Source of the DNA: an uncultured Desulfobacteraceae bacterium
Lineage (GTDB): Bacteria > Desulfobacterota > Desulfobacteria > Desulfobacterales > Desulfatirhabdiaceae
Reading direction: 5' to 3'
Length of the DNA stretch: 42,196 bases
NCBI GenBank assembly: GCA_903953895.1
Contig: CAJBLH010000248.1
Location: 1-42,196 of the forward strand
This document shows, piece after piece, positions 38,410-42,196 of the stretch. The notes beneath the pieces are model-generated. The model was not told where the DNA came from and ran no database searches. It saw only the letters and a list, made by a program, of their open reading frames with translations. The position numbers were made by a program, and so were the translations under genes. Every line of letters starts with the position of its first letter. Position 1 is the first letter of the stretch.

Positions 38410-38736
38410 TTATGCAGTTTTTGGCAGCCGGACCCCCATGACCGGCACATGGCTTCTGCGGACCACCCGCATGGCTGTGCTGCCCATCATGGCGCCGGCC
38501 ACTATACCATGACCATGCGTACCCATGATGTTGACATCATAATCTGATGCAATGGATTCCGCAATAATTTCTTCCACGGGGTGGCCGTTTCTAACTTTGA
38601 GCGCATCGCAAAGCGATATCGTTGTACTCCCCTTACGATAATCGCTGCTCTGTTTAAAATTATTTCTGACCATATTAATGAGCGGATCAGCGCTCAAGTC
38701 TTTACGAAGTTTTGCTGGCGAAGACCGAATATTCAC
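38410..38736 (-). pseudogene. Universal stress protein, N-terminally truncated
   Basis: The last 60 residues match the C-terminal half of a UspA domain: GHPVEEIIAESIASDYDVN, IMGTHGHG and the phosphate-binding G-x2-G-x9-G(S/T)-like GHGIVAGAMMGSTAM, then SHVPVM. A UspA domain normally has 140-150 residues and starts with a beta strand of the ILVPVD type. Here only 108 residues are open, with an unrelated N-terminus and no good start. The 194 bases upstream to 38930 hold no recognisable missing part. It looks like a decaying gene, unless a frameshift hides the N-terminus. Confidence 0.55.
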
Positions 38737-38930: not shown

Positions 38931-41900
38931 ATGATAGAGCCGTCCAAATGCAGGGCCGAAAATGAAAATCCATCTCAGGAGAACAATTCCCTGTTTTCTC
39001 GCCAGAGTCGGCACGCTGCATGGATCATGCTGGTGGTCTGCCTGGTTATTGTCGCGACTGCGACCCTGTACATGAAATCAAGCGTGGAAAGGACTGCGGA
39101 ATCGGAATTCATCTTCCGCAGTGACGAAACTCGCGATGCGATAGCAAAACGGATCGATGACCATGCTCGCATCCTGCTGAGCGGTGCAGCTTTATTCAAT
39201 GCATCCGATATGGTTACGCGCGAAGAATGGCGTATTTTTACCCAAACCCTGAAGGTCGAAAAACAATTACCCGGCATTCAGTGCTTTGGTTTTTCGCTTC
39301 TGATCCCGCGTGCGGAACTGACCCGGCATATTCAGAAAATCCGCAGTGAAGGATTCCCTGAGTACAACATCAGGCCGCCTGATGACAGGGAAATATACTC
39401 ATCCATCATCTATCTGGAACCATTTTCCAATCGTAACCTGCGGGCCTTCGGCTATGACATGTTCTCGGAACCTGTGCGACGGGAAGCCATGGAGCGCGCG
39501 CGAGATACGAATTCCGTCGCGATTTCCGGCAAAGTTGTTCTGGTTCAGGAAACCAACGATGAAATTCAGGCCGGCACCGTGATATTTGTTCCGGTTTACC
39601 GCAAAGGGATGCCTACAGATTCAGTCGAACAACGTCGTGCCGCAATCTATGGCTGGGTTGGCAGTCCCTACCGCATGAACGACCTGATTCAGGGAATTCT
39701 TGGCGGCCGCAATCTGGAGCAGGAACATCAACTTCACCTTCAGGTCTTTGATGGCGTGCAATGTGCTTCCCAAAGCCTGCTCTACGAAAGTCTTCCTGTG
39801 AGAGATAAAAAACTTCGGCATGAAGAACGTTTCATCAGGGAGATTCCGGTTGATTTCAACGGTCATCGCTGGACCCTGCGCTTTACACAGAGCTATGGGG
39901 GATTTTTTACGGCGGAATTCACCAAGGCATGGCTTGTCATGGTCACCGGCACGCTCATTGCGTTACTGCTATCCACCTTGATACGAGTTATGCTGAACAC
40001 CGGTGTCGAAGCTCGGAAGTTGGCGGAAACGCTGACCGTTGACCTGCGGGAGAGCGAGGAAAAATTCAGAGTTCATGTCGAAAACTCATTTGATGTCATT
40101 TTCACGATTAATAGCGAGGGAATATTCATTTTCGTATCCCCCGCTTTCGAAAGGCAATTTGGCTATCCTGTCAGCGATGTAACCGGGAGATCTTTTTCCC
40201 AAGTTGTCCATCCGGATGACATCGCGCCCTGCGCCGAACATCTTAAACGGGTCCTGAGTACCGGCAAGAGCGAAACGAGCCCTGCCTTTCGCGTCAAACA
40301 TGCCAACGGCGAATGGTACTGGTTTCTTGCCAATGGCGCTATTTATGTTGGTGCGAAAGGCGAACCCCTGTATATTGGTGTCGGCCGCGATATCACCATG
40401 CGTAAGCTGGATGAATCATATAGAGAACTGACCCGGAATGCGCTCCAGATACTCAATGAACCGGGAGATATGGGAAATTCAATTCAGCGTATCCTTGCTG
40501 AAATTAAGACACAGACCGGTTTTGACGCTGTGGGCATTCGCCTGCAGGATGGGGATGACTTCCCGTATTTTTTCCAGAATGGTTTTTCCAAAGATTTTCT
40601 GCTGAAGGAAAACACATTGATCGAGCGTAAGACGGATGGCGGGGTATGCCGGGACAAAGACGGCAATGTCTGCCTGGAGTGTACCTGCGGGCTGGTAATT
40701 TCCGGCAAAACCGACCCGGCCAATTCGCTTTTTACACAGGGAGGAAGTTGCTGGACAAATGATTCGTTCCCGATTCTTTCCATCCTGCCGGGCGAAGACC
40801 CCCGACATAATCCACGCAATCGATGTATCCATGAGGGCTATGCATCCATAGCTCTGGTGCCTGTTCGAAGCAAAGATAAGATTGTCGGCTTGATTCAGCT
40901 TAACAATCGGGTCAAAGGACGTTTCACTCTCGAAATAGTTGAGCAGGTGGAAGGAATCGCTTCGCATATCGGGTCGGCATTGATGCGCAAGAAGGCCGAG
41001 GAGGCGGTAATAGCCAGCGAAGCCAGATTCCGCACTATCATTGACGTTTCTCCGGTTTCGATGGCGTTAAATGATGATGAGCAGCGCATTACATTCTTAA
41101 ATCAAACGTTTATTAAAACGTTTGGCTATACCCTGGAGGATATCCCCACTCTCGCGCACTGGTGGCCTAAAGCTTATCCCGACCCTGAATATCGACAACG
41201 GGTTGCTGATGATTGGCAAGCCGTACTCTATCAAGCAAAACTCACCGGGGAAGCATTCTCGTCAATGGATATATCCGTGAGATGCAAAAACGGAACGACC
41301 AAAACCATTATTGTCAGTACCGCTTCGTTTTCCAACTCCCTTGGGGGGACTCACCTGGTGATGTTGTATGACATCACCGCCCGCAAACAAGCGGAAGAAA
41401 CACTGCGGGACAGTGAGGATCGCTACCGGACACTGTTTGCCATGGCTGGTGACGGGATATTGCTTCTATCCGGCAATGGCGCGTTGATTGATGTGAATGA
41501 ATCTTTTGCCCGGATGCACGGTTACAGCACACAGGAAATGCGAAACATGAACCTGAAAGATTTGGTGCCCCCTGAAACCTCTCACCTGATATCCCCAAGA
41601 ATGCACCGCCTCCTTGCCGGAGAGGCAATGACCCTTGAAGTGATGCACTATCACAAGGACGGTCACGTTTTCCCGCTGGAAGTGTCGGCCGCTCTGGTAA
41701 CTTATGGCAATGAATCCTACATTCAATGCTTTCATCGTGACATCACCGAACGTAAGCGGACCGAGACGGTTCTGCAGAATCATCAGGTCAAGCTCGAGAT
41801 GCAGAACGAGGAGTTGCGCCGGGTCCAGGCAGAACGGGACGCTGCGGGAGCGCGCTATTTTGACTTTTACGATCAGGCGCCTGCGGGCTATCTTACCCTA

Positions 41901-42196
41901 AGCCAAGAGGGGCTGATCCTGACGGCCAATCTCACCATGGCAACCTTCCTGGACATAGCGCGAAGCGATCTGGTCAATCAGCCTTTGGGACAGTACATAT
42001 TCAGGGAGGACCAGGACATCTACTATCTGCAATGCAAACAGCTCTTTGAAAAAGCCGCGCCGCAGAGGTGGGAGATGAGAATGTTGGGAAAAAACGGAAC
42101 GACATTCTGGGTGCAGATAGATGCAATCGCTGCGCGGAACGCCGATGGCGTGCCCTCATGCCGTATGGTGATCAGCGACATCACCGTTCGCAGGGA
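38931..42196 (+). CDS. CHASE-PAS-GAF-PAS sensor protein (partial, runs off the window)
   Basis: The frame is open from ATG 38931 (AGGAG eight bases upstream) to the window end, 1088 codons, with no stop. There are two membrane helices, about residues 27-48 and 330-353. Between them lies a periplasmic CHASE domain (about 80-300) with FSLLIPRAEL, EGFPEYNIRPP, YLEPFSNRNLRAFGYDM and SEPVRREAMERARDTN. Then come a PAS/PAC domain (about 372-490), a GAF domain (about 500-683) with the Cys-rich insertion C573-x7-C581-x2-C584-x-C586, and three more PAS domains (about 693-822, 823-945 and from 970). CHASE domains bind extracellular small ligands. The output part lies outside the window; histidine kinase, GGDEF or a response regulator fusion are all possible, so it cannot be named further. 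Confidence 0.9.
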   Translation, partial: MIEPSKCRAENENPSQENNSLFSRQSRHAAWIMLVVCLVIVATATLYMKSSVERTAESEFIFRSDETRDAIAKRIDDHARILLSGAALFNASDMVTREEWRIFTQTLKVEKQLPGIQCFGFSLLIPRAELTRHIQKIRSEGFPEYNIRPPDDREIYSSIIYLEPFSNRNLRAFGYDMFSEPVRREAMERARDTNSVAISGKVVLVQETNDEIQAGTVIFVPVYRKGMPTDSVEQRRAAIYGWVGSPYRMNDLIQGILGGRNLEQEHQLHLQVFDGVQCASQSLLYESLPVRDKKLRHEERFIREIPVDFNGHRWTLRFTQSYGGFFTAEFTKAWLVMVTGTLIALLLSTLIRVMLNTGVEARKLAETLTVDLRESEEKFRVHVENSFDVIFTINSEGIFIFVSPAFERQFGYPVSDVTGRSFSQVVHPDDIAPCAEHLKRVLSTGKSETSPAFRVKHANGEWYWFLANGAIYVGAKGEPLYIGVGRDITMRKLDESYRELTRNALQILNEPGDMGNSIQRILAEIKTQTGFDAVGIRLQDGDDFPYFFQNGFSKDFLLKENTLIERKTDGGVCRDKDGNVCLECTCGLVISGKTDPANSLFTQGGSCWTNDSFPILSILPGEDPRHNPRNRCIHEGYASIALVPVRSKDKIVGLIQLNNRVKGRFTLEIVEQVEGIASHIGSALMRKKAEEAVIASEARFRTIIDVSPVSMALNDDEQRITFLNQTFIKTFGYTLEDIPTLAHWWPKAYPDPEYRQRVADDWQAVLYQAKLTGEAFSSMDISVRCKNGTTKTIIVSTASFSNSLGGTHLVMLYDITARKQAEETLRDSEDRYRTLFAMAGDGILLLSGNGALIDVNESFARMHGYSTQEMRNMNLKDLVPPETSHLISPRMHRLLAGEAMTLEVMHYHKDGHVFPLEVSAALVTYGNESYIQCFHRDITERKRTETVLQNHQVKLEMQNEELRRVQAERDAAGARYFDFYDQAPAGYLTLSQEGLILTANLTMATFLDIARSDLVNQPLGQYIFREDQDIYYLQCKQLFEKAAPQRWEMRMLGKNGTTFWVQIDAIAARNADGVPSCRMVISDITVRR

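Follow-up and report, generated by a model that had tools for sequence, protein, structure and literature searches.

The gene at the end of the window (the whole stretch of DNA that was analysed, a contig of 42196 nt) is predicted to encode a hybrid histidine kinase of CHASE/PAS/GAF type. Its GAF domain would form a thiolate site from C573, C584, C586 and C632, most likely binding an iron–sulfur cluster that would signal redox state, O2 or NO (probability about 0.4). This reading is built on the domain architecture, on the conservation of four cysteines among close relatives, three of which also hold in distant members, on a confident GAF fold and on a kinase output located through a contig overlap. 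In the proposed mechanism, C573, C584, C586 and C632 of the cytoplasmic GAF domain would serve as thiolate ligands of the cluster, which oxidation, O2 or NO would alter or destroy; the change in the cluster would shift the GAF/PAS stack, and this shift would in turn affect both the autophosphorylation of HisKA and phosphotransfer to the receiver fused to it. We infer that the four sulfurs meet in space and bind iron, and also which signal is sensed and which way the response runs.

The open reading frame of the sensor kinase (38931-42194, + strand) encodes 1088 amino acids, with no stop before the contig end, and is organised as follows.

38931..42196, + strand: sensor kinase gene, first 1088 aa, continuing past the contig end
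39012..39080, + strand: hydrophobic stretch, aa 28-50, probable transmembrane helix 1 (Kyte-Doolittle scan)
39210..39785, + strand: CHASE domain, aa 94-285 (PF03924, 213.5 bits)
39927..39995, + strand: hydrophobic stretch, aa 333-355, probable transmembrane helix 2 (Kyte-Doolittle scan)
40062..40406, + strand: PAS domain 1, about aa 378-492 (PF00989 378-488, PF08448 384-492)
40410..41000, + strand: four-cysteine GAF domain, aa 494-690 (PF01590 518-684, 31.2 bits against a cut-off of 22.4; AlphaFold2 GAF fold)
41022..42194, + strand: three further PAS domains, aa 698 to the contig end (PF13188 698-750, PF13426 841-940; TIGR00229)
42097..42196, + strand: 99 of 100 bases shared with one end of contig C246, the frame running on into HisKA, HATPase_c and REC

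The domain order is thus a hydrophobic stretch, CHASE, a second hydrophobic stretch, PAS, GAF and three more PAS domains, and the hydropathy peaks on both sides of the CHASE domain fit a CHASE receptor. The combination of CHASE, four PAS domains and GAF, as read in the initial annotation, is borne out, since both CHASE (94-285) and GAF (518-684) exceed their Pfam cut-offs and since PAS_3 and TIGR00229 give four PAS stretches, the best delimited of which is TIGR00229 826-946. That annotation had the output domain out of view; it was located through the contig overlap as HisKA-HATPase-REC. Over its final 100 bases the window is identical to the end of C246 except for a single mismatch at 42156, and the C246 frame carries the last PAS domain on into HisKA, HATPase_c and Response_reg (Pfam). 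Because the C246 end overlaps the gene by 100 bases and continues its frame, the complete protein is predicted to be a hybrid histidine kinase of 1580 aa, counted from the overlap. Through this putative join, whose two halves never lie within one contig, HisKA, HATPase_c and a receiver follow the sensor in one chain, as in hybrid histidine kinases.

A whole-gene search of the genome returned 13 places, i.e., the window itself, the C246 end (99%), a tandem paralogue inside C246 (93%) and ten others (66-71%). Past the join lies a second hybrid kinase with PAS domains and a similar C-terminal half, in which dCache matches only weakly (41.8 bits, under the cut-off of 45); a REC-HisKA-HATPase protein follows it. 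The C-terminal halves of the two tandem kinases (window 41370-42196 and L009:10579-14754, minus strand) are near-identical, with 93% DNA identity over 827 bases, while their N-terminal sensors differ; the pair exemplifies the exchange of sensors through duplication, and the repeat probably explains the assembly break. Past the receiver domain, about 90 aa (L009:14814-15090, minus strand) gave no Pfam match at E ≤ 0.001, and kinase ends at locus L013 look similar to this tail by eye. Elsewhere in the window, a universal stress protein remnant (38410-38736, minus strand) matches just positions 84-141 of Pfam Usp, has stops in its upstream frames and appears decayed.

The initial annotation had also suggested that an external CHASE signal is integrated with the internal redox state. 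As a conserved design this did not hold, as CHASE, looked for with Pfam at E ≤ 1e-5, was listed in none of eight relatives; all eight are rich in PAS domains and have a kinase ATPase domain, and their front parts vary between dCache, HAMP, REC and PAS. Two GAF paralogues in the same genome likewise lie within PAS-rich kinases. In everything but its cysteine-bearing GAF domain, the protein is a hybrid histidine kinase of the ordinary sort.

The GAF region contains six cysteines (573, 581, 584, 586, 607 and 632). The spacing C573-x7-C581-x2-C584-x-C586 given previously is exact in the translated sequence; of the two further cysteines placed near 607 and 637, the first is there and the second is at 632. 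Their conservation was first counted in a combined alignment of 121 GAF domains including the query (122 hits, with one short row dropped).

40647..40649, + strand: C573, in 83/84 close relatives and 0/26 distant ones
40671..40673, + strand: C581, variable, 25/121
40680..40682, + strand: C584, first cysteine of CxC, 119/121
40686..40688, + strand: C586, second cysteine of CxC, 121/121
40749..40751, + strand: C607, variable, 27/121
40824..40826, + strand: C632, third invariant-class cysteine, 118/121

The relatives were drawn from 297- and 395-genome samples of the window's phylum and from 80 named loci, the latter being the best 80 of 462 encoded relatives that one peptide pattern (GY[EA]S...) found in 84,980 species genomes, a choice that favours close relatives and the pattern itself. 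C573 is kept in 87/121 domains overall, and by identity to the query in 83/84 at 55% or more, in 4/11 at 40-55% and in 0/26 below. The proposed conservation of the cysteine set thus holds for C573, C584, C586 and C632 in close homologues and for the last three in distant ones, and fails for C581 and C607 throughout and for C573 at a distance. The variability of C581 and C607 ruled out a single site made of all six cysteines. Four of the six form the conserved set of a widespread GAF subfamily, and because they are conserved in close homologues, and C584, C586 and C632 in distant ones as well, a metal, iron–sulfur or thiol site is a credible candidate.

Of the 163 distinct domains in a larger set, 73 came from the phylum samples and the remaining 90 from named loci, where the 395-genome sample leaves out partial matches and most matches below 50 bits and, for most of its genomes, scores at most eight candidates per genome. 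Counts were made on the rows of near-full coverage (52, 14 and 88), with the other nine left aside. Among the 52 phylum rows that score at least 150 bits, C584 occurs in 51, C586 in 51, C632 in 50, C564 in 31 and C573 in 6; the 88 named rows have C584 in 86, C586 in 88, C632 in 87, C564 in 5 and C573 in 82. The 14 remote phylum rows (60-150 bits) have C584 in 9, C586 in 13, C632 in 9, and neither C564 nor C573 in any. The triad C584/C586/C632 thus persists past the close family and decays in remote paralogues, with only 7 of these 14 rows keeping it in full. The near-invariance of the triad in the 121-row alignment and in the phylum rows of at least 150 bits favours the iron–sulfur reading; its presence in only half of the remote rows counts against it, as does the loss of C584 from 2/121 domains. 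A remote GAF group, with frames of about 580-600 aa (L186-L194), retains GSxW-like parts of the family and has partly or wholly lost the triad. At L070:3542-4110, an adjoining copy of the four-cysteine GAF domain is split across two frames, a possible frameshift.

Within the genome, the pattern is more than chance, because 27 of the 30 GAF matches examined (from 37 places matched by Pfam GAF) lack CxC...C. CxC followed by a cysteine 35-60 residues on was found in 2 of the 30; a third match, L226, is truncated and belongs to a paralogue (L016) that does have CxC...C.

In distant members, a cysteine at 564 takes the place of C573. Across the 121 rows, C564 occurs in 24 and C573 in 87, both together in none and neither in 10, so that exactly one fourth cysteine is present in 111/121, which supports the iron–sulfur reading. 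The same holds in 12 of 13 Methanosarcinaceae domains, from 10 of 80 sampled genomes, which have the triad plus exactly one fourth cysteine (seven at 564, five at 573), the thirteenth being degenerate; both forms thus occur within this family. However, on a FastTree tree of 147 of the 163 rows, with columns 560-583 excluded, the 564/573 labels need a single change (six if 'neither' is a third label). Because the tree needs only one change, the exclusivity is a single historical swap; repeated co-evolution was rejected, which counts against the iron–sulfur reading, as do the 10 rows with neither fourth cysteine. Among these rows is a short-loop subtype that carries Ser at 564 and has three cysteines in all, the main result against a strict four-cysteine site.

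The same conservation bears on zinc, i.e., on a structural or regulatory Zn(II) that the cysteines would hold to brace the GAF loop, with sensing by another part of the pocket. The four cysteines of the close relatives would suit Zn(Cys)4, and R537 (121/121) and R629 (120/121) suggest a separate polar pocket in addition to the cysteines. However, the short-loop members with three cysteines do not fit such a site, and zinc is considered unlikely.

The fold itself was predicted with confidence. AlphaFold2 (89-row alignment) gave a GAF fold with pLDDT 91.7 and pTM 0.89, and structure matches reach Z 18.1 (3trc, rmsd 2.9, 159 aligned), placing the domain in the GAF superfamily together with the above-cut-off PF01590 match and favouring the iron–sulfur reading. 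The model is numbered by fragment, as protein position minus 493. Its helix 91-97 begins with a turn that holds C584 and C586, and helix 138-141 contains C632; positions 564 and 573 fall at or next to two single-residue bridges (71/73 and 79/81), which might face one another. The fRMsr structure 3mmh ties with 3trc (Z 17.9, rmsd 2.1, 153 aligned), and C586 and C632, placed by secondary structure, seem by eye to resemble the placement of two cysteines of E. coli MsrC. These likenesses speak for a metal-free thiol switch, in which the conserved cysteines would pass reversibly through disulfide or sulfenate states as in fRMsr catalysis.

However, generic GAF entries match the model as well as fRMsr does, and profile alignments to MsrC covered 43-44 columns, all after the cysteines; E. 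coli MsrC relatives (E ≤ 1e-15) were found in 1/198 phylum genomes, too few for a profile. The acidic pair of the fRMsr motif GVLDID has a role in substrate binding, and the Asp pair of MsrC aligns with Q656 and N658 here. Although fRMsr/MsrC, as far as its published descriptions go, is also a GAF fold with functional cysteines, it is a stand-alone enzyme, unlike the kinase here. Moreover, the claim of redox-dependent autokinase activity for the thiol sensor RdmS is reported to have been revised by its own authors. The fRMsr idea is retained only as a rival, and an improbable one.

The preferred iron–sulfur reading, i.e., a redox sensor most likely working like AirS, draws on precedents. The AirS sensor region is a GAF domain. 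According to a review, the histidine kinase AirS of Staphylococcus aureus carries in its sensor region a cysteine cluster of the form C...C-x-C...C, spaced C-x7-C-x-C-x17-C, and has a [2Fe-2S] cluster; compared by motif, the spacing in the present protein is C573-x10-C584-x-C586-x45-C632. Because the AirS spacing is unmatched, which also counts against the reading, the protein was not filed as a member of the AirS-type [2Fe-2S] kinases. SoxR holds its [2Fe-2S] cluster by C-x2-C-x-C-x5-C in the reviewed account. In the CSK/Hik2 redox kinases, the published text gives a [3Fe-4S] cluster with a conserved GAF cysteine as ligand in a sensor kinase, as proposed here, but it describes just two conserved cysteines, one of them shown as a ligand, and no CxC. 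NorR, in the relevant review passage, also has a GAF domain holding non-heme iron with one cysteine ligand; unlike the site here, its iron is mononuclear, its ligands are mainly Asp/Arg, and the review's ligand list has no CxC.

The Methanosarcina acetivorans kinases MsmS and RdmS were compared by description only. Heme is attached to MsmS at Cys656. A corresponding possibility here is covalent heme or another tetrapyrrole bound via one conserved cysteine, and the presence of the subfamily in Methanosarcinaceae is in its favour. Reviews describe MsmS, which has several PAS and GAF domains, as a sensor kinase that is heme-based or carries c-type heme. Both proteins are described as PAS/GAF kinases tied to redox sensing that lack an H-box, whereas the present protein has HisKA and REC. 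However, the match rate in Methanosarcinaceae is low, and a single attachment cysteine leaves three or four conserved cysteines unexplained, making heme very unlikely.

Searches for relatives of characterised chemistry returned little. PDB phmmer and profile searches gave weak-scoring GAF or GAF-like entries and lactoferrin by chance, i.e., no sequence relative with known chemistry; the GAF fragment matched no NCBIfam model at E ≤ 0.01, viral contigs and plasmids gave no relatives at the settings used, and the portions of open-licence literature searched contained no description of a four-cysteine GAF subfamily. By their record titles, the best 80 of the 462 relatives span many phyla, and two come from methanogens. 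A tentative possibility is that this distinct, unnamed Cys4 GAF subfamily, spread over methanogens and many bacterial phyla, serves PAS-rich kinases as a portable iron–sulfur input module for redox state, O2 or NO, and that its fourth ligand shifted a single time between 564 and 573. Taken as a single gene, the protein is one more hybrid kinase of a common kind; if the site binds an iron–sulfur cluster, a large set of uncharacterised kinases would gain a predicted input, and with the residues for mutation already identified, the question lends itself to a direct test.
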